Shown here: positions 99-9,105 of the stretch, piece by piece
Layout: each line of letters starts with the position of its first letter
Position numbering within the stretch: position 1 is the stretch's first letter
Assembly (NCBI RefSeq): GCF_002278925.1
Contig: NZ_NCJH01000018.1
Coordinates: forward strand, 1-64,000
Reading direction: 5' to 3'
DNA length: 64,000 nucleotides
DNA from: Polaromonas sp. 39-63-25
GTDB taxonomy: Bacteria; Pseudomonadota; Gammaproteobacteria; Burkholderiales; Burkholderiaceae_C
Position numbers and translations under genes: made by a program
Notes under the pieces: model-generated
The model's database searches: none
What the model saw: only the letters and a program-made list of their open reading frames with translations
What the model was told of the DNA's origin: nothing

Positions 99-136
99 GG
101 GGTCGTCTCAGAAAACGGAAAAAATCGTACGCTAAG
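99..136 (+). repeat. Left terminal inverted repeat of the Tn3-family element
   Basis: This 38-bp sequence begins GGGGTCGTCTCAG and ends CGTACGCTAAG. It is the exact reverse complement of 6613-6650. It lies 1 bp outside the tnpA stop codon, as usual for the family. Confidence 0.95.
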
Positions 137-137
137 G

Positions 138-3104
138 CTAGGCCAGCGGTCGTAGTGGCCTGAACTTCCCCGCACCGACTTTGGCGCTGCTGCGCCAGAG
201 GTAATCGCCGGTCAGGTTGATGTGCTCCCAGCCCAGCGGCGACAGGTACTGCAACAGCGCGTCATCGACACCCTGGCCGTGATGACGCAATGCGTTCGCG
301 GCCCTTTCCAGATAGACGGTGTTCCACAGCACGATGGCTGCCGTCACAAGGTTGAGGCCACTGGCCCGATAGCGTTGCTGTTCAAAGCTGCGGTCGCGGA
401 TTTCGCCCAGTCGGTTGAAGAACACAGCCCTGGCCAGCGCGTTGCGTGCCTCCCCCTTGTTGAGTCCGGCCTGAACGCGGCGGCGCAACTCCACACTTTG
501 CAGCCAGTCCAGGATGAATAGTGTGCGCTCGATGCGCCCCAGCTCGCGCAGGGCGACGGCCAAGCCGTTTTGGCGCGGATAGCTGCCGAGCTTGCGCAAC
601 ATCAGCGAGGCCGTCACCGTGCCCTGCTTGATCGAAGTGGCCAGTCGTAGGATTTCATCCCAATGGGCGCGAATAGCCTTGATGTTCAGCCTGTCGCTGC
701 TAATCATCGGCTTGAGCGCATCGTAGGCAGTATCGCCCTTGGGAATGAACAGCTTCGTGTCGCCCAAGTCACGAATGCGCGGCGCAAACCGGAACCCCAG
801 CAAGTGCATAAGGCCAAACACATGATCGGTGAAGCCTGCCGTATCGGTGTAGTGTTCCTCGATACGCAAGTCAGACTCGTGGTACAGCAGGCCGTCGAGC
901 ACATAGGTCGAGTCACGCAAGCCAACGTTGACCACCTTGGCGCTGAAAGGAGCGTATTGGTCGGAGATATGGGTATAAAACGTCCGCCCAGGGCTGCTTC
1001 CATATTTCGGGTTGATATGCCCGGTGCTCTCTGCCTTGCTGCCGGTTCTGAAGTTCTGCCCGTCCGACGATGATGTGGTGCCGTCGCCCCAGTTTCCGGC
1101 GAAGGGTTGCCGGAACTGTGCGTTGACCAGTTCGGCCAACGCCGTTGAATAGGTTTCGTCGCGGACGTGCCAGGCTTGCAGCCAGGACAGTTTGGCGTAG
1201 GTCGTGCCGGGGCAGGACTCGGCCATTTTGGTCAAGCCCAGATTGATCGCATCGGCCAGAATCGTTGTCATCAGCAAGGTTTTGTCCTTGGCGGTGTCGC
1301 CGGTCTTCAGGTGCGTGAAGTGCCGCGTGAAGCCCGTCCATTCATCGACCTCCATCAGCAACTCGGTAATTTTGAGGTGTGGCAGGATCATGGCCGTCTG
1401 ATCGATCAGGGCCTGCGCAGCATCGGGCACCGCCGCGTCCAACGGCGTAATCTTCAGGCCCGACGCGGTGGTGATGATGGCGTCCGGCAGGTCATTGGCG
1501 GCCGCCATGCGATTGACGGTGGCAAGCTGTTCCTCCAACAATTCCAGCCTTTCACGCAGGTATTGATCGCAGTCGGTGGCCACGGCCAGCGGCAATTCGC
1601 TGGCCAGCTTCAGAGTGACGAACTTCTCGACCGGCACCAAGTATTCGTCGAAGTCTTTGAACTGGCGCGAGCCTTGCACCCACACGTCGCCCGAGCGCAG
1701 CGCGTTCTTCAGCTCCGACAGGGCGCAAAGCTCGTAGTAACGCCGGTCGATGCCCTCGTCGGTCAGAACCAGTTTGGCCCAGCGTGGCTTGATGAATGCG
1801 GTTGGCGCGTCGGCTGGCACCTTGCGGGCACTATCGCTGTTCATGCCGCGCAGAACGTTGATGGCATCGAGCACCCCCTTGGCGGCGGGCGCAGCTCGCA
1901 GCTTGAGTACGTCGAGGAACTGCGGCGCGTAGCGGCGCAAGGTGGCGTAGCTTTCTCCAATGTGATGCAAGAAATCAAAGTCAGCAGGCCGCGCCAGAGT
2001 TTGCGCCTCGGTGACACTGGCGGCGAAGGTGTCCCACGGCATGACTGCCTCGATGGCGGCAAACGGATCGCCGCCTTTTTGCTTGGCATCGATCAAGGCT
2101 TGTCCGATGCACCCATACAGCCGCACCTTGTCATTGATCGCCTTGCCGCTGGCCTGAAACTGCTGCTGATGCTTGTTCTTGGCCGCGTTGAACAGCTTGC
2201 CGATGATGCGGTCGTGCAGGTCGATAATTTCATCGGTGACGGTGGCCATGCCTTCGATGGCCAGCGCGACCAAAGTGGCGTAGCGCCGCTGCGGCTCGAA
2301 CTTGGCCAGGTCGGCGGGCGTCATCTGACCACCCTCGCGGGCGATCTTGAGCAAGCGATTTTGATGAACCTTCCGCTCGATGCCAGCGGGTAGGTCAAGC
2401 GCCTGCCAGGATTTTAGACGCTCAATGTGTTCGAGCATGTGGCGCGAGTTCGGTTTGGCAGGCGACTGGCGTAGCCAAGCCAGCCACGTCATTTTGCTGC
2501 CTTCCTTGCGCTTGAGTAGTTCATCCAGGCGCGGACGGTGGAGGGTTTCGAGGGAGTCGGTCAGCACAGCGTGAATGCGCCGGTTGGCGCGGGTTATCGC
2601 CTCGGCACAGACTCGTTCGATAACATCGAGCGCCGGAATAATGATGTGCCGGTGACGCAGTGTATCGAGTACGCTGCCAGCCAACACGATGCCCTTGTCT
2701 GTCTGCAAAGCCAGTTCGGTCGCGGCATGCACCGCTTGGCGGTAGTGCGCCAGAACGAAAGGTTCCATGCCCAGATAAGTGCGCAACTCCAGCAAATGCT
2801 CGCGGCGCGTGGTTTCCCGCTCGGCATACTGCGGCCAGCAGGCCGGATCGATGCGCAGTTGCCGCCCGATCCATCCCAGCAGCGATGCCGAGACGATGGT
2901 ATCTGTCAGCAAGCCTTGACCCGGAAAACGCAACAAGCACAACTGCACAGCCACCCCCAAGCGGTTGGCATCGCCGCGCCGTTGCCGAATTAATGACAGA
3001 TCGGTTTCGTTGAAGGTATAGTGACGGATCAGCTCATCTTTGTCGTCAGGCAGAACCAGCAGGCTGTCGCGTTCAGTGACGGAGAGGACCGACCGACGTG
3101 GCAT
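138..3104 (-). CDS. tnpA: Tn3-family transposase TnpA
   Basis: TnpA cuts and joins the 38-bp ends in replicative transposition. At 988 residues it has the full length of the family. The N-terminus ([16 protein letters not shown]...) is typical of the Tn21-like subgroup, with the DUF4158 DNA-binding part first and the DDE catalytic part in the C-terminal third (for example the [16 protein letters not shown] and [14 protein letters not shown] stretches). It starts 6 bp after the stop codon of the four-helix membrane gene, so it can be read from the cargo operon promoter at about 5880 as well as from any promoter of its own. It appears intact. Confidence 0.95.
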
Positions 3105-3110
3105 TTAGCG

Positions 3111-3605
3111 TCACCTCAATCCCGTTACACGCTCAGCCTTTGAGCCAAGAGGCGTCGCTGCCACGGACGCAGGTAAGCGCGCCACCCGTCTACGCCCAAG
3201 CCAAATGTGTGCTGGGATAGCCAAACAGGCGACGGTGCCGACACCTATATGCCCCCATCGCACCCAATCGCGCCATTCCTCGCCACCGTAATAGAGCAGC
3301 ATGCCTGTTGCACCGAGCAGGGCCATCAATGACAGCGCGACGAGGCCGGATGCCAAATTACGTTTGACACGCCACGCAAGCCGGATGTGCAACGGCAGTA
3401 AACCACCGACGATCACAAGTGCGATGGCAGCGGCCACACCATGAACTGTGAGTAGGCGGCGCTCAGCGAGCATCCAACCCCATTGCAGAACATCGTGGAG
3501 CAGGCTCCATATAAGCCCGCTGGCGGCGACTACGATCAGTGCCAGGTAAGTCGCCCAGCGTTGTGCCTTGGGCAAGCGGATGCTAAACATATGGTGCGTC
3601 GTCAT
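3111..3605 (-). CDS. Four-helix His-rich membrane protein (predicted b-type cytochrome-like)
   Basis: This 164-residue protein has four predicted membrane helices. Histidines lie near or in the helices (LTVHGVAA, PLHIRLAW, RWGHIGVG, IPAHIWLG), a layout compatible with binding two b hemes, as in DUF4405-type membrane cytochromes. It ends in a basic cytoplasmic tail (GRRRVARL). The start overlaps the apbE stop by 4 nt (ATGA), so translation is coupled. With the FMN-binding protein and ApbE it would form the membrane entry point for electrons passed to periplasmic flavin. Heme binding is an inference from the His positions; the family was not identified with certainty. Confidence 0.7.
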   Translation of the reverse strand: MTTHHMFSIRLPKAQRWATYLALIVVAASGLIWSLLHDVLQWGWMLAERRLLTVHGVAAAIALVIVGGLLPLHIRLAWRVKRNLASGLVALSLMALLGATGMLLYYGGEEWRDWVRWGHIGVGTVACLAIPAHIWLGRRRVARLPASVAATPLGSKAERVTGLR

Positions 3606-4441
3606 AGTGTCACGACCCTGGCTTGTGCATATCTGGCGAGGCGCATAGGCAGTCGCCCGTGAAGAATGGCGATCTTGGTCAAGCCATCGGCCAACAGGCA
3701 GTTGCGAGCGATCACCGATACACTATTGGTTATCGTGACGATTCGTTCTCGCCTAGCGTTCACAATCGCACTTGACGCAGCGCCACCTGGACGGTTTGTG
3801 TCGGTAAAGTACGATGCAGAGGTCGCTATCGCGCCATTGGTCAGCGTCCCGATTAGTTGAGCCTGATAAGGATCGTCTGGACAGCGTAGCCACACGGGCT
3901 GCGAGGCGGCACCAAAAGTGCGCAAATCACCACCAGCATTGACCAAGCCGCTTTTCATGCCATGCGCTTGCAGAACCTCGACCGCTTGATCGACAGCAAA
4001 ACCCTTGGCAATTCCACCAAGGTCAAGTGCTACGCGAGCATTCAGTTTGACCGAACGGTCGTTTCTCAAGCAAATGGCTTCCCCATAGGGAAAGCGGCGG
4101 ACTGATTTGCCAGGAGTATTCTTGGGTAGTTGGCCAAAGCGCATCAGAGATGCGCCGACATTGCAATCGAACACGCCACCGCTCCACTGCCAAAGCCGCA
4201 GCGCCTCACGCAACACCTGGTAAGTCCAGCCATGTACACGCAGGATCGATCCAGGCCGCGCACAATTCAAACGTCCAATATCGCTACTGCGCCGATGAAA
4301 ACTCATCAAGCCATCGACACGAGCAATGGCGCGAAAAGCAGATTCGACTGCCGACTCCACCTGGGCACTAGCCGCAGCACCTTCTGCCCGGATCGTCACG
4401 AATGTGCCCAGCAAAGGGCGCATGCGCTCAACGACCGACAC
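3602..4441 (-). CDS. apbE: FAD:protein FMN transferase (ApbE)
   Basis: ApbE attaches FMN covalently to a Ser/Thr of a target protein, using FAD and Mg2+. Family blocks are visible in order: LLGTFVTI near the N-terminus, MSFH, the DLGGIAKGFAVD block, NAGGDLR, GAIATSASYF and a C-terminal LLADGLTKIAIL. The 279-residue length is normal. Unlike most ApbE proteins it starts directly at the first domain block (MSVVERMRPLLGTF) with no signal peptide or lipobox, so as written it would stay in the cytoplasm. The first 14 nt overlap the end of the upstream FMN-binding gene, its obvious substrate. Confidence 0.9.
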   Translation of the reverse strand: MSVVERMRPLLGTFVTIRAEGAAASAQVESAVESAFRAIARVDGLMSFHRRSSDIGRLNCARPGSILRVHGWTYQVLREALRLWQWSGGVFDCNVGASLMRFGQLPKNTPGKSVRRFPYGEAICLRNDRSVKLNARVALDLGGIAKGFAVDQAVEVLQAHGMKSGLVNAGGDLRTFGAASQPVWLRCPDDPYQAQLIGTLTNGAIATSASYFTDTNRPGGAASSAIVNARRERIVTITNSVSVIARNCLLADGLTKIAILHGRLPMRLARYAQARVVTL

Positions 4442-4964
4442 CTGGCAACCCTTTCAACATCGTATCGTATACCGCCAACACGCGGCGTACGCCATCGGTG
4501 AGATGCTTGGAAGATAGCGTAGCGCCGGTGATATTAGTGATGTCTTTGTTCAGTTTGACAGGCGATGCGGCGGTCTTGCCGACAAACTGCTTACGCCAAG
4601 CCGGATCACGAATCTCATAGCCGTAGGTTTCCCGGTATTCGAGAATTTCAACTTGCTTCACGCTTCCATCGGCATTAAGACCCACCGCGTAGGTAATCAT
4701 TTCATGCTTACCCACAACTTGGTCGATGACGAAAAATCCTCGCCCCTCCACGGCCCATACGCGATTTTCCTGAAATGGCTCATAAACACCGGAACGGGCA
4801 CGCAACGCGTCGCGCTGATCCTGGGTTAGCGCCAAATTCATCTGAGTGAACTTAGCTCCTGGAAACATGGCCTGTTGAGCCTGCTCTGTTGAAAAATAGA
4901 CATTGCCCCAACTGGCTGTTGAAATTACAACAAGCGGGACAGCAAAGAAAGGTTCCCAGCGCAT
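4428..4964 (-). CDS. Exported FMN-binding-domain protein (ApbE substrate)
   Basis: This 178-residue protein has an N-terminal hydrophobic export segment (MRWEPFFAVPLVVISTASWG) and a C-terminal FMN-bind domain. The flavinylation signature is present as NITGATLSS at about residues 144-152, where the Thr of GAT would carry the phosphoester-linked FMN. It lies between the barrel gene (2-bp gap) and apbE (14-nt overlap). In similar modules such proteins relay electrons across the periplasm, for example to ferric iron. The acceptor here is not known. Confidence 0.85.
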   Translation of the reverse strand: MRWEPFFAVPLVVISTASWGNVYFSTEQAQQAMFPGAKFTQMNLALTQDQRDALRARSGVYEPFQENRVWAVEGRGFFVIDQVVGKHEMITYAVGLNADGSVKQVEILEYRETYGYEIRDPAWRKQFVGKTAASPVKLNKDITNITGATLSSKHLTDGVRRVLAVYDTMLKGLPGVGR

Positions 4965-4966
4965 GA

Positions 4967-5854
4967 TTAGAACGGCACTCCGACTTTGAGCATGAACTGG
5001 TTACGCGTATGCTCGTCGCCATAAATACGACTATTGCTGATGACCGCTTTTTGATCATCTTGAAAACCACTGGCTAGGGGTAGTTGCTGACGCCAAGCTA
5101 CGGTCACCCACCAGTTCTTGGTCGCGTAATGCAAATTCGGCCCTAAGAACCATGCCGAGTGATTGGCAACGCCATAACCATAACCTGTGAACTCGCGGTG
5201 GTTGCGCGCCTCAAAGCCAGCGGACCAGTTATTGGTAAAGCGGTAGGACAACCCAGTCAGAAAATCGACTTCAGTAGCTTTTTCCACACGGCTCCCTCGT
5301 TTGTTGTTTTCAAGAGCTGTAACTAGATTTGTTGCCCAGATCAAACGGTCGTCGAAGAAATTCTTTTGCAAGATGAGTTTGAACTCCAACTCCTTGTTTC
5401 GTGGCCCCCAAGTCGGTTCGACATAAAGCGCCAGACCAATCGGATCGACGAGAGGGTTCGATATCTGATAGACGTTCTCCCAGGACACGGACTCGAATCG
5501 GCTCAACTTGTAGCGAGAGGTTGGATCAAAATTGTCTGGGATGTCAGTGTTTGGGCCAGCAGTTGTGCCATCCATTTGATTTTGGTATGCGTTGATGTAC
5601 CGCGAATTTAAGTAAATTCCGGTTTGGTACTTTGATGTGATGCCGAATTCCATTTCCGAACGTAGTCTTACGTTCGTGTAATCGCCCAGGGTCTGTTTCG
5701 TCTGCACATCAACCCATTGCTGGAATTGGCGGGTCCCGGGTGGCTGAACATCAGCCGTGTAGATCCATCCAAAGGGCGACTCCCCGGCAGCGGCAGGTTG
5801 TGAAAATGCGCCTGCCAGTGCGGCGACGGCGACGAGGGACTTGGCAAGCTTCAA
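4967..5854 (-). CDS. Predicted outer-membrane beta-barrel protein (DUF6662-like)
   Basis: A 295-residue exported protein: a clear signal peptide (MKLAKSLVAVAALAGAFSQ, then PAAAGES) is followed by alternating aromatic/polar strands and a C-terminal Phe (LKVGVPF), as in outer-membrane barrels. It resembles proteins annotated DUF6662. The start is a TTG codon at 5854, chosen because GGAGAA lies 7 nt upstream and the signal peptide begins there. It is the first gene of the cargo operon, just downstream of a Fur-like box. A role as porin, or as outer-membrane partner of the flavin system, is inferred from context. Confidence 0.7.
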   Translation of the reverse strand: MKLAKSLVAVAALAGAFSQPAAAGESPFGWIYTADVQPPGTRQFQQWVDVQTKQTLGDYTNVRLRSEMEFGITSKYQTGIYLNSRYINAYQNQMDGTTAGPNTDIPDNFDPTSRYKLSRFESVSWENVYQISNPLVDPIGLALYVEPTWGPRNKELEFKLILQKNFFDDRLIWATNLVTALENNKRGSRVEKATEVDFLTGLSYRFTNNWSAGFEARNHREFTGYGYGVANHSAWFLGPNLHYATKNWWVTVAWRQQLPLASGFQDDQKAVISNSRIYGDEHTRNQFMLKVGVPF

Positions 5855-5879
5855 GGTGATTCTCCATACAATTGTTAAT

Positions 5880-5898
5880 GCGAATCGTTATTATTCTC
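5880..5898 (-). promoter_or_regulatory. Fur-box-like operator before the flavin operon
   Basis: Read on the minus strand this is GAGAATAATAACGATTCGC, which matches 13 of 19 positions of the Fur consensus GATAATGATAATCATTATC. It lies 25 bp upstream of the TTG start of the barrel gene in an AT-rich patch, where iron-repressed promoters usually sit. Repression by Fur-Fe2+ is an inference. Confidence 0.6.
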
Positions 5899-6042
5899 GT
5901 TTTAATGGCCTGTGTCAAATTCCAGGGTTATTGCGACAAGTAGAGGTCGCCGACTCATTGGCACAAAACAACGCTTGCAAGTGACGCAAAAATCGTCGCA
6001 TAATCAATGCTTCATAAACCTATGGAATGGATGATTTGAAAC
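5899..6042. promoter_or_regulatory. Probable resolution (res) site and tnpR promoter region
   Basis: This AT-rich non-coding stretch lies between the cargo promoter and tnpR, the usual place of res in Tn3-family elements with an outward-reading resolvase. It contains partial dyads such as TTGCAAGTGACGCAA near 5970. I cannot define the three subsites by eye, so the call rests on position. Confidence 0.35.
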
Positions 6043-6597
6043 ATGCGCATCGGCTATGCACGGGTATCAACCGACGACCAGACACTCGACTTGCAGCGCG
6101 ATGCGTTGAAGCTGATGAATTGCACCGAGATCTACGAGGAATACGCCAGCGGTCGAAGCGCGGCTCGCCCCCAACTAGAGGTGTGCTTGAGAGCGCTGCG
6201 TGCTGGCGATACGCTGGTGGTCTGGCGACTCGACCGCCTAGGACGCAGCTTGAAGGATTTGATCGAACTCACCGCCGCGCTACGGACGCGTCAAATCGAG
6301 TTCGAGTCGCTGACAGAACACATTGACACGAACTCACCTACCGGCAGACTGGTTTTTCATCTATTCGGTGCCCTGGCCGAGTTCGAGCGCAATCTGATTC
6401 GTGAACGGACAATGGCCGGACTGAAGGCTGCGCGGGCGCGAGGGCGCAGCGGTGGGCGTCCGAAGAAGCTGTCGGTGAAAGACTTGAGAACAATCCAGGC
6501 ACTGCTGAAATCCGGCGACGTACCCATCGTGACCATTGCTGAGCAGTTCGGCATTTCACGCTCGACGATCTACCGCAACGCGGGTAAGCCGTCCTGA
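6043..6597 (+). CDS. tnpR: Serine resolvase TnpR
   Basis: This small serine recombinase (184 residues) resolves Tn3 cointegrates at res. The N-terminal catalytic domain shows [15 protein letters not shown] with the nucleophile Ser at about residue 9 and the WRLDRLGRS and RERTMAGL arginine motifs. A C-terminal helix-turn-helix follows ([16 protein letters not shown]). It points toward the right transposon end, opposite to tnpA. Length is normal and no damage is seen. Confidence 0.95.
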
Positions 6598-6612
6598 GCG
6601 CTTGCAGTCGGC

Positions 6613-6650
6613 CTTAGCGTACGATTTTTTCCGTTTTCTGAGACGACCCC
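6613..6650 (-). repeat. Right terminal inverted repeat of the Tn3-family element
   Basis: A 38-bp sequence that is the exact reverse complement of 99-136. It starts 16 bp after the tnpR stop. Confidence 0.95.
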
Positions 6651-7045
6651 AAGAAATCAAGGCGCTCCGCGAGAAGCACGGCAAGGTGGCGATGGTAGGA
6701 GATGGCGTCAATGATGCCCCTGCCATGGCCAACGCTACCGTCGGCATTGCAATGGGTGCTGCAGGGTCCGATGTTGCGCTTGAAACCGCCGATGTGGCCC
6801 TCATGGCTGACGACCTGGCTCAACTTCCGTTTGCGGTTGGATTGTCCCGCAGCACGAGTCGCATCATTCGCCAGAACCTGTTTGTCAGCTTGGGCGTGGT
6901 TGCGGTGTTGATTCCGGCCACGATATTTGGTCTCAACATTGGAACTGCTGTGCTTTTCCATGAAGGATCCACTGTGATGGTTGTCGCGAATGCATTGCGT
7001 TTGCTTGCCTACAACTTCACGTCAAGCGCCAACAAAGAAGCATGA
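6651..7045 (+). pseudogene. 3' fragment of a heavy-metal P-type ATPase
   Basis: About 130 codons remain. They encode the hinge motif of the P domain ([18 protein letters not shown]), the following [13 protein letters not shown] segment and the last two membrane helices, ending [13 protein letters not shown]...KEA. This is the C-terminus of a P1B metal exporter of the Zn/Cd/Pb type. Everything before it, including the CPC and DKTGT motifs, is missing. The frame runs straight out of the transposon end at 6651, and no matching 5' part lies on the other side of the transposon. Confidence 0.9.
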
Positions 7046-7105: not shown

Positions 7106-8815
7106 TCATCTTGTACCTGTGCAAGATGCATACACATCTAGTTGAGGCTGGTAGACAACGGTCTTAATACTGAGCAGCCCTAGTACCGAGTGAAAGTAAT
7201 TGTCGTGCGTAATCTTCTCCTCTTGTTTCTTGTGCAAACACTCAGGAGTGAGAGTTTTCTGGCTTGCAAAGCGGGGGGATAGCCAGGTAAACCAAGGCAC
7301 CCTCGTCTGCACATCAGGCGCGATAGCATACGGCAGGCCGTGGAGGTAAAGATTGTTCTCGCCGAGGGACTCTCCATGATCACCGACATACACCATGGCG
7401 GGAGCATAGGTGGCTTGCTGCGTTCTGAGCCAATGAATAGTTGAGTCGAGGAAATGGTCGGTGTAGATGATCGAGTTGTCGTACGCATTTAGCAGTTCAG
7501 CTTGGCTGCAGTTTTGCAAATCGTTGCTCGAACATTCAGGCCCAAATTGTTTAAACGCTTGGGGAGAGCGAAGGTAGTAGGCCGGGCCATGGCTACCCAT
7601 CGCGTGCAGTACCAAAACCACCCCGCGCGCACGCGCCTTTGCAGGCAGCGCTGCAATCCGTGCATCCAAATCCTCAAGCATGATGGCGTCGTAACACGCA
7701 CCCTCCGGACACAATTGAGGGTTCCTTAGTTTGGATGTATTGGCATAGCCAACGCGATCACATGCCCCTTTGCAACCTGACTGATTGTCCAACCAAAGCA
7801 CTGCCATCCCCGCGCGTTGGATCACGTCCAGAAGACCCTCAAAATTCTTGCTTCTCGCGTCGAATTGGGTTCGCCCAAGGTTTGAAAACATGCAGGGCAG
7901 GGCCGCCGCCGTACTGGTTCCACATGCTGAGACGTTCCGGAAGCTGGCGACTTCTTCGTGTCCCAGCTTGGGAGTCGTCGGACGAGGATAGCCATTTATG
8001 CTGAAATTGCCACTCCGCGCCGTCTCTCCAACCACCAAAATTATCAGCGGCGGAAGATCATTGGAAGCAACCTCAGGGGAGCGCGCATCCAGACCTATGG
8101 GCTCCAGGACTGATCGATCACGTTGTAGCGGCCCTGCAGCTAAATAGCCCAAGGCATACATCGAATTCAGCGGGTTCATCAAATACCGCACCTGCTTGTG
8201 GTTACGCATCGTGGACGCAAGCGGTTGATAGCTGAGTACAACCGACACTGCAAGCAGGATCACGGCAGCTATCGCCATCAGAAAATTCTGAAGCAGCCGT
8301 CGTGACCAAGGGCCGTAGCCAATAGGTAGGCGCCAGATTGCCCAGGATGGCAATACAGCCAATACAAGCACCGTAACGACTAATCGCGGACTGAACAGGT
8401 CTGCGGCCTCCCTCACGTCGGTTTGAAGCACATTGATCATCATGGTCGCATCAATCACAACGCGATAACTCCACATGAAGTAGGCCCCAAAAGCCGAGGC
8501 GAATAGCATCAGCGTAAGAACGGGTTTCAATGTCCAGCGCCATGCAAACAGGCTGAGCATGGCCATCAGTGTTGCAGCAATGATTAACATCATTGCCAAC
8601 GAAAAAGCAAGCCCTGCTGGGTCGCTAGTCAACGCAAGATGGGACAATTCGCGCCACAGAGGAAAATTGGCCGCGGTCGCCAGCCAAAGACTGCCGCCGG
8701 TTACCAGCCAAATGGGATTGTGATTCCTCGGAGCCTCACCTGCATGGTCGACGGAAGACGGAAACTTGCGTGAAAATGGCGCCGAATCGAGGCGCCAAGC
8801 ATGGAAAAATTTCAT
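7106..8815 (-). CDS. eptA: Lipid A phosphoethanolamine transferase (EptA/MCR family)
   Basis: An inner-membrane enzyme that transfers phosphoethanolamine to lipid A, which lowers binding of cationic peptides. Five N-terminal membrane helices are followed by a periplasmic sulfatase-fold domain. Visible motifs are VVGETARSGNFSINGY, the nucleophile region CGTSTAAALPCMFS, the Cys pairs of the catalytic domain, VLHAMGSHGP and VYVGDHGESLGENNLYLHG. I start at the ATG at 8815 (MKFFHAWRL), preceded by GAGG. An in-frame GTG at 8917 overlaps the upstream stop (GTGA) and would add 34 residues that do not look conserved. Whether it confers polymyxin tolerance cannot be told from sequence. Confidence 0.88.
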   Translation of the reverse strand: MKFFHAWRLDSAPFSRKFPSSVDHAGEAPRNHNPIWLVTGGSLWLATAANFPLWRELSHLALTSDPAGLAFSLAMMLIIAATLMAMLSLFAWRWTLKPVLTLMLFASAFGAYFMWSYRVVIDATMMINVLQTDVREAADLFSPRLVVTVLVLAVLPSWAIWRLPIGYGPWSRRLLQNFLMAIAAVILLAVSVVLSYQPLASTMRNHKQVRYLMNPLNSMYALGYLAAGPLQRDRSVLEPIGLDARSPEVASNDLPPLIILVVGETARSGNFSINGYPRPTTPKLGHEEVASFRNVSACGTSTAAALPCMFSNLGRTQFDARSKNFEGLLDVIQRAGMAVLWLDNQSGCKGACDRVGYANTSKLRNPQLCPEGACYDAIMLEDLDARIAALPAKARARGVVLVLHAMGSHGPAYYLRSPQAFKQFGPECSSNDLQNCSQAELLNAYDNSIIYTDHFLDSTIHWLRTQQATYAPAMVYVGDHGESLGENNLYLHGLPYAIAPDVQTRVPWFTWLSPRFASQKTLTPECLHKKQEEKITHDNYFHSVLGLLSIKTVVYQPQLDVYASCTGTR

Positions 8816-8913
8816 TGCATCGCCTCGATTCGCATTGGGGCATGAAACCGCGTTTTCATCTGGTTTCCCACTAAGCGTCAGTTCCTCTAAATTTTTCCCA
8901 CAAGCCACCTTCG

Positions 8914-9105
8914 TCACCTTCTTTTTCTTCTGGTTTTAGAAGGTAGCTTTTTTCGATATATCTCTGGTATTTTGAGCTTTTTGTCTCTCCACAAAAAGTA
9001 CAGAATGATCAATAAAAGGACAACCGAAATTCCACCGGCCGAAAGTAGTAGTGCACCGAGTGACTCACGAGATGCATTGACGGGGCTATGAAAGTTTGAG
9101 GGCAT
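8914..9105 (-). CDS. Small single-pass membrane protein with WRDKK motif
   Basis: 63 residues: a short exposed N-terminus, one membrane helix (LLLSAGGISVVLLLIILYFLW), then WRDKKLK and a strongly basic tail ending KTRRKRR. A similar protein lies at 28303-28497 (SYLLWRDRKKFK ... RRVRRKRPR), so this is a small paralogous family within the window. It directly precedes the phosphoethanolamine transferase gene and may be translationally coupled to it. Function unknown; small stress-induced membrane proteins are common in metal-resistance islands. Confidence 0.6.
   Translation of the reverse strand: MPSNFHSPVNASRESLGALLLSAGGISVVLLLIILYFLWRDKKLKIPEIYRKKLPSKTRRKRR

Follow-up and report, generated by a model that had tools for sequence, protein, structure and literature searches.

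Introduction

Closest to the locus described here are gene clusters in which apbE accompanies a membrane electron-transfer protein. In the DUF4405/FezC clusters reported in mSystems in 2024, apbE lies beside a small four-His membrane cytochrome, and there is a link to iron through ferrosomes; in the excerpted text of that source, the cytochrome has six helices, the clusters are described with a Flavodoxin_4 substrate, and heme b binding is demonstrated for a DUF4405 protein (PMC11334425). The PepSY/DUF2271/ApbE iron-reduction clusters combine a flavinylated exported domain, ApbE and a membrane electron-transfer protein, and excerpts of the eLife 2021 paper that describes them report Fur repression for PepSY-type clusters in two species (PMC8238504). 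Here, we analyze a four-gene cassette (the module) carried by a Tn3-family element in Polaromonas sp. 39-63-25, within a stretch of 64,000 nucleotides (assembly GCF_002278925.1, contig NZ_NCJH01000018.1, positions 1 to 64,000) that we refer to as the window.

The module's genes are outside the five membrane classes set out in the consulted parts of the eLife 2021 paper (PMC8238504): the cassette has no PepSY, NapH, MsrQ, DsbD or NQR/RNF membrane protein, and it differs from the PepSY/DUF2271/ApbE clusters in its substrate, its cytochrome and its DUF6662 barrel. The nearest class is DUF4405/FezC (PMC11334425). As far as that source's descriptions extend, the module departs from it in having an FMN_bind protein (FMN, flavin mononucleotide) as substrate, a cytochrome-like protein of four helices with weak DUF4405 similarity (TM4), an additional outer-membrane barrel and Fur-like operator, and an ApbE without leader. 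The FMN_bind domain and flavinylation motif are shared with RnfG and NqrC, which are subunits of an ion-pumping complex, whereas the module protein is stand-alone and exported. Overall, the module looks like an unusually built, uncharacterized version of the known ApbE-based extracytosolic electron-transfer systems, working as they do, and it may be listed, undiscussed, in the supplementary tables of these papers.

Results

A Tn3-borne cassette with a predicted flavin and heme chain

An earlier note, made from the window's sequence alone, had described a complete Tn3-family element with a four-gene cargo operon. Both descriptions hold: identical 40-nt repeats enclose intact tnpA and tnpR genes, and between these genes lies a cargo with three domain matches and a four-His, four-helix TM4 (Table 1). 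Counted from the promoter, the gene order is barrel, FMN_bind protein, ApbE and TM4.

Table 1 Features of the Tn3-family element and its cargo, in window coordinates
Feature	Position	Strand	Evidence
Tn3-family element	99-6650		bounded by identical 40-bp inverted repeats
Left 40-bp terminal inverted repeat	99..138	+	100% complementary to 6611-6650
tnpA, Tn3-family transposase, 988 aa, intact	138..3104	-	DDE_Tnp_Tn3 E 5e-158; NF033527 full-length, 1275 bits
TM4, four-helix membrane protein, putative di-heme b cytochrome	3111..3605	-	H55, H73, H119, H133 conserved
ApbE, FAD:protein FMN transferase (FAD, flavin adenine dinucleotide) without export signal	3602..4441	-	PF02424 E 1e-41
Exported FMN_bind protein, single domain	4428..4964	-	PF04205 E 2e-12; TGATLS motif
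DUF6662 outer-membrane barrel, TTG start	4967..5854	-	PF20367 E 7e-14, 52.4 bits vs cut-off 27
Fur-box-like operator, 15/19	5877..5895	-	scored against AATGATAATCATTATCATT; overlaps -10
Sigma-70-type promoter TTGACA-17-AATAAT, 11/12	5890..5918	-	-10 at 5890-5895
tnpR, serine resolvase, 184 aa, intact	6043..6597	+	Resolvase E 6e-46; divergent from tnpA
Right 40-bp terminal inverted repeat	6611..6650	-	100% complementary to 99-138

The barrel was modeled with 12 strands (mean predicted local distance difference test score, pLDDT, 76.5), and Foldseek returned FapF, a COG4313 channel and NanC as neighbors of the predicted structure (best matches 5o67, E 8e-10, and 4rl8, E 4e-6). The apparent likeness to the FapF/COG4313 12-strand channels is one of predicted fold only, at ~10% sequence identity, and a shared function does not follow from it. 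In the FMN protein, whose closest solved relative is RnfG (7zc6, E 1.2e-8), the predicted covalent FMN site is Thr149 (codon 4518-4520). G147, T149 and S151 are invariant in an alignment of 15 sequences, and [ST]GAT is present in 77 of the 79 loci, among 91 in total, where the motif search matched; L004 and L015 (L-numbers denote loci and G-numbers genomes), which the search missed, read AGAT and GGAT in the alignment.

The model of the 164-aa TM4 (mean pLDDT 74) shows four helices. Among 12 relatives, every one has H55 and H73, and H119 and H133 are conserved at ≥90%; once the aberrant L015 is dropped, all four are invariant in nine relatives. The simplest assignment of these residues would place a pair of heme ligands close to either face of the membrane. 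At E up to 0.1, DUF4405 matched six of the 12 TM4 relatives (best 4.7e-4) and cytochrome b561 matched four (best 1.1e-6), while in the only two cases where Pfam scores were compared with the cut-off, they fell below it (13.7 vs 26.7 for the window's TM4 and 20.6 vs 30.1 for that of L028).

The module recurs as an operon and lies beside iron genes in relatives

Using a profile of the FMN protein (E up to 1e-25), we obtained matches in 61/399 genomes of the order Burkholderiales and 8/369 of the class Gammaproteobacteria, the host's own genome being counted in both. The resulting 91 loci comprise 73 fetched regions, 12 loci from genome contigs, five plasmid loci and the window; neighboring genes were assigned to families by single-linkage clustering, which misses genes shorter than 70 aa. 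ApbE was found in 80 loci by clustering and profile recount alike, TM4 in 79 by clustering and 81 by profile, and a DUF6662-type barrel in 45, so that the unrelated homologues that would have spoken against the earlier note's grouping of the barrel and the His-rich protein did not materialize. A second barrel type, with a weak match to Porin_O_P, is present in 27 loci, in some of them downstream of TM4. The module is a conserved operon.

A CCP_MauG di-heme gene precedes the second barrel type in L027, L102, L132, L133, L139, L143, L146, L159 and L160. Several of these loci have a Fur-like site upstream of CCP_MauG, which represents a second operon form.

The association with iron genes for which the earlier note had looked is likewise found: FeoAB, Bfd and Bfr lie beside the module in relatives. 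By clustering, CCP_MauG was present in nine of the 91 loci, ferritin-like Bfr in seven, Bfd in six and FeoB in five. In L005, feoA and feoB directly follow TM4 on the same strand, and L144 has both genes at the same offset from the module. A FeoB_C match was obtained in 53 of the 68 genomes searched. Setting aside the host's own genome leaves 52 of these, and in four (G094, G327, G410 and G316) FeoB_C and the FMN gene are no more than 7 kb apart, where 0.31 cases would be expected for an 8-kb limit (Poisson P 3e-4); two further genomes have them 10 and 12 kb apart. In at least 13 genomes, from nine genera, a stand-alone Bfd lies 7 kb or less from the FMN gene, against an expectation of 0.9 that generously assumes three Bfd per genome.

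A Fur-like operator overlaps the predicted promoter

The promoter upstream of the barrel gene is one of two promoter-like sites found in the searched region, where 0.5 were expected. The earlier note had proposed a Fur-box-like site here, and a hand count in its register confirms 13/19; the best register reaches the 15/19 given in Table 1, a score attained at two positions only in the whole window (5877 and 34200). We first compared module first genes with control upstream regions and found sites of ≥13/19 in 28/60 and 38/490, respectively. Because several of the top control sites were actually located upstream of CCP_MauG genes heading the alternative operon form, the test was redone with FMN proteins clustered at 75% identity and reduced to a single representative each (57 of the 91 loci, of which 39 had a first gene that could be measured). 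CCP_MauG was treated as a first gene, and controls overlapping the upstream region of the module were dropped. Sites of ≥13/19 then precede 24/39 first genes and 18/217 controls (p 8e-13), sites of ≥14/19 precede 19/39 and 5/217 (p 8e-14), and sites of ≥15/19 precede 11/39 and 3/217. The recurrence of similar sites in relatives argues that the site in the window is more than a chance match.

The module's ApbE lacks a leader while its substrate carries one

The window's ApbE has seven residues before the conserved [RQK]P-LGT motif and no signal peptide. We found the motif in 65 module ApbE loci (26/91 were unscored), with at most 20 residues ahead of it in 50 of the 65 and fewer than 12, too short for a signal peptide, in 34. 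With a plain Kyte-Doolittle window rather than a trained predictor as the signal threshold, a hydrophobic N-terminal stretch was registered in one module ApbE locus (L113). Judged by this threshold, the N-terminus of the FMN protein is signal-peptide-like in 67/67 measurable loci; those left out are 12 loci with an [ST]GA/GG motif but without an N-terminal anchor and 12 without a motif match.

For comparison, we used 30 ApbE loci of 30 module-bearing genomes together with the host's second ApbE. Of the non-module proteins, 19/23 exceed the threshold, 15 of them with a lipobox-like end by eye; L174, L176, L183 and L185 exceed it yet do not resemble true signal peptides, and two of the four unsignaled controls, L192 and L193, are module-type by eye. 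Among the module ApbEs of this set, 1/8 exceeds the threshold, namely L189, whose frame is over-extended. Another of the four unsignaled controls, L169 (G000:C18), is the one further ApbE that the host encodes, which leaves both host ApbEs without a leader. Next to L169 is an open reading frame (ORF) that by eye resembles a flavodoxin/NADP reductase with a fused PepSY-type membrane protein.

Most ApbEs are seemingly secreted, and cytosolic ApbEs exist, that of K. pneumoniae serving a soluble fumarate reductase, according to excerpts of PMC12052999. Given a leaderless ApbE and an exported substrate, flavin, if it is attached here, may be attached before Sec export. A fuller version of this idea, which we put forward tentatively and consider rather doubtful, is a class of extracytosolic flavin electron transfer in which the cytosolic ApbE would add FMN before or during Sec export, and the flavoprotein would reach the periplasm cofactor-loaded, without a periplasmic FAD supply. 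If true, such a self-sufficient system could work in any host after transposition, which may explain its occurrence as Tn3 cargo. A leaderless transferase paired with an exported substrate also raises a testable question, namely whether a covalent flavin attached in the cytosol passes through Sec.

Carriage on the transposon and a probable further route of transfer

As the earlier note had stated, the cassette travels on a Tn3 element, and the same cargo::tnpA junction, with 6-12 bp between the TM4 stop and the tnpA start, was found in two genomes besides the window's (L009 and L162). Both of these transposon-borne copies are decayed. L009 has a TnpA that is 88% identical, a single inverted repeat and an FMN protein without its N-terminus, and it has lost the barrel. 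In L162 (G759), TnpA is cut after ~35 residues and the barrel gene is split, its 5' part and the promoter region lying ~5 kb off with a Tn3-type transposase ORF, recognized by eye, in between (L162:2028-7133). Because the cargo of L009 is only 61-84% identical to that of the window, the association of cargo and tnpA is probably old. TnpA matches were obtained in 19 further genomes of the order, and the 1.5-kb flanks seen in these do not contain the cargo.

A second genomic association of the module is with copper and metal islands. In L006 (Roseateles puraquae), the module sits in an 11-kb stretch that matches both L007 (a Burkholderiales metagenome-assembled genome) and L008 (Pelomonas aquatica) at 99.6-99.8% identity, and this agreement across records suggests recent transfer of the island by a vehicle other than the Tn3 element.

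Discussion

Proposed function and competing explanations

We favor, as the probable function of the module, a Fur-repressed, transposon-borne operon for assimilatory Fe(III) reduction that feeds Fe(II) uptake. The genes, their domains, the flavinylation motif, the set of four His, the promoter and operator, the conservation of the module and its association with feoAB, bfd and bfr are the sequence-level grounds for this proposal. At low iron, Fur would leave the operator over the -10 element and the operon would be expressed. TM4, taken as a b cytochrome of minimal size, with four helices and two hemes predicted to be bis-His ligated, would draw electrons from the quinol pool of the inner membrane, the presumed donor, and hand them to the periplasmic FMN protein, in which the co-encoded ApbE is predicted to bind FMN covalently at Thr149. 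Fe(III) or small Fe(III) chelates, the putative acceptors and barrel substrates, would enter via the DUF6662 barrel and be reduced by the flavoprotein, and the resulting Fe(II) would be imported by the host's FeoB, for which one FeoB_C match is found (contig C52). If this is true, a compact Fur-controlled class is added to the flavin-based electron-transfer systems, DUF6662 and a family of tiny b cytochromes acquire functions, and iron-reduction machinery travels on the kind of transposon that spreads resistance genes.

Several observations weigh against this proposal. The earlier note's statement that all parts needed for the electron transfer are present was too strong: the substrate motif, ApbE and TM4 are there, while the cassette carries no ferrous importer, its ApbE lacks an export signal although the substrate has one, and the electron donor is assumed. 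A FeoB, Bfr or Bfd cluster member occurs in only 10/91 fetched regions, a count from which short Bfd genes were missed (four more genomes have Bfd nearby), and the neighbor statistics for FeoB and Bfd ignore the kinship of the genomes. Since 15/39 dereplicated first genes are without a Fur-like site of ≥13/19, Fur control of the module looks common, not universal. The metal-resistance genes around mobile copies of the module also count here, and they raise the alternative of a copper- or metal-resistance accessory, in which the chain would reduce periplasmic Cu(II) or another metal for CusCBA/CopA-type export and the transposon would spread it among metal islands. CusA-type resistance-nodulation-division (RND) pumps, 63-100% identical to that of L006, lie near the module in L006-L008 (one near-identical island, with a P-type ATPase upstream of the module), L118 and L162; the best Fur-like site of L118 scores 11/19, below 13/19; the plasmid relative L028 sits among copper-oxidase genes; and in the window, the element has a fragment of a CadA-type ATPase beside it, and a CzcA-like RND lies at a distance of 8 kb from the FMN gene. 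Even so, the copper island of L006-L008 has kept a 16/19 Fur-like site, CusA-type neighbors occur in only five of the 91 loci, at three independent places, and metal islands are commonly home to Tn21-type elements in general, and we regard a role in metal resistance as quite unlikely.

Fur control would be compatible with an iron-sparing carrier: under iron starvation, the covalent flavin would stand in for an iron-containing carrier in the periplasm, within some respiratory or repair pathway, and the substrate would be something other than iron. Flavin/cytochrome interchange in respiratory systems is reported in parts of the eLife 2021 paper (PMC8238504), and CCP_MauG di-heme proteins precede the barrel in nine loci. 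Little iron would be spared, however, by a system whose TM4 is itself predicted to use two hemes; the co-localization with feoAB and bfd points toward iron handling, and no respiratory oxidoreductase was recognized by eye in the 45 largest neighbor clusters, many of them unannotated. We consider this explanation unlikely. Finally, the broken state of the other two transposon-borne copies (L009 and L162), along with the missing cargo in the TnpA-bearing genomes mentioned above, would suit a passenger without selected function, captured by chance and decaying, with an iron role only in chromosomal copies. Against this stands the window's copy, in which all four genes are open and both promoter and operator are present, and we consider the explanation very improbable.

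Architecture of the element and its surroundings

An intact DDE transposase, terminal repeats of ~38-40 bp and an intact resolvase mark the element as a member of the Tn3 family. It was found once in the host genome, a 54-contig draft, in which no second copy was seen. Across its full length, the 988-aa TnpA shares ~90% identity with the plasmid Tn3-family transposases that rank best among the matches listed, a similarity by which we take it to belong near the Tn21 subgroup, and several relatives have related GGGGTCGTCTCAGAAAACGG inverted-repeat ends. Unlike transposons of this subgroup, whose usual cargo is mercury or antibiotic resistance, the element carries iron/flavin cargo. Its tnpR is of a different lineage, with 38-40% identity to the tnpR genes beside the nearest TnpA relatives and 65% to the best plasmid resolvase match, and it is divergent and located at the element's far end. 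Two 13-nt imperfect inverted repeats lie beside tnpR in 5840-6060, with no clear res subsites in that region.

The element ends show no 5-bp target-site duplication (flanks tagtg and aagaa). Such a duplication marks an unrearranged insertion and does not define a Tn3 element as such. The left flank is only 98 bp long before the start of contig C3, where the window opens, and by eye it seems unrelated. The right flank (6651-7045) begins within the final quarter of a gene for a CadA-type heavy-metal P-type ATPase and holds its last ~120 codons. Given the lack of a duplication and a right flank inside a CadA-type gene, the site of insertion was probably rearranged, unless it is interrupted by the assembly. 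Also adjoining the element is a gene for an EptA/EptB-type phosphoethanolamine transferase (PF00884, PF08019; window 7106-8917). Elsewhere, the Tn3-family element L036 has tnpA and tnpR in divergent orientation, only ~0.7 kb apart, and G196 holds two such elements, L036 and L049, with equal TnpA scores.

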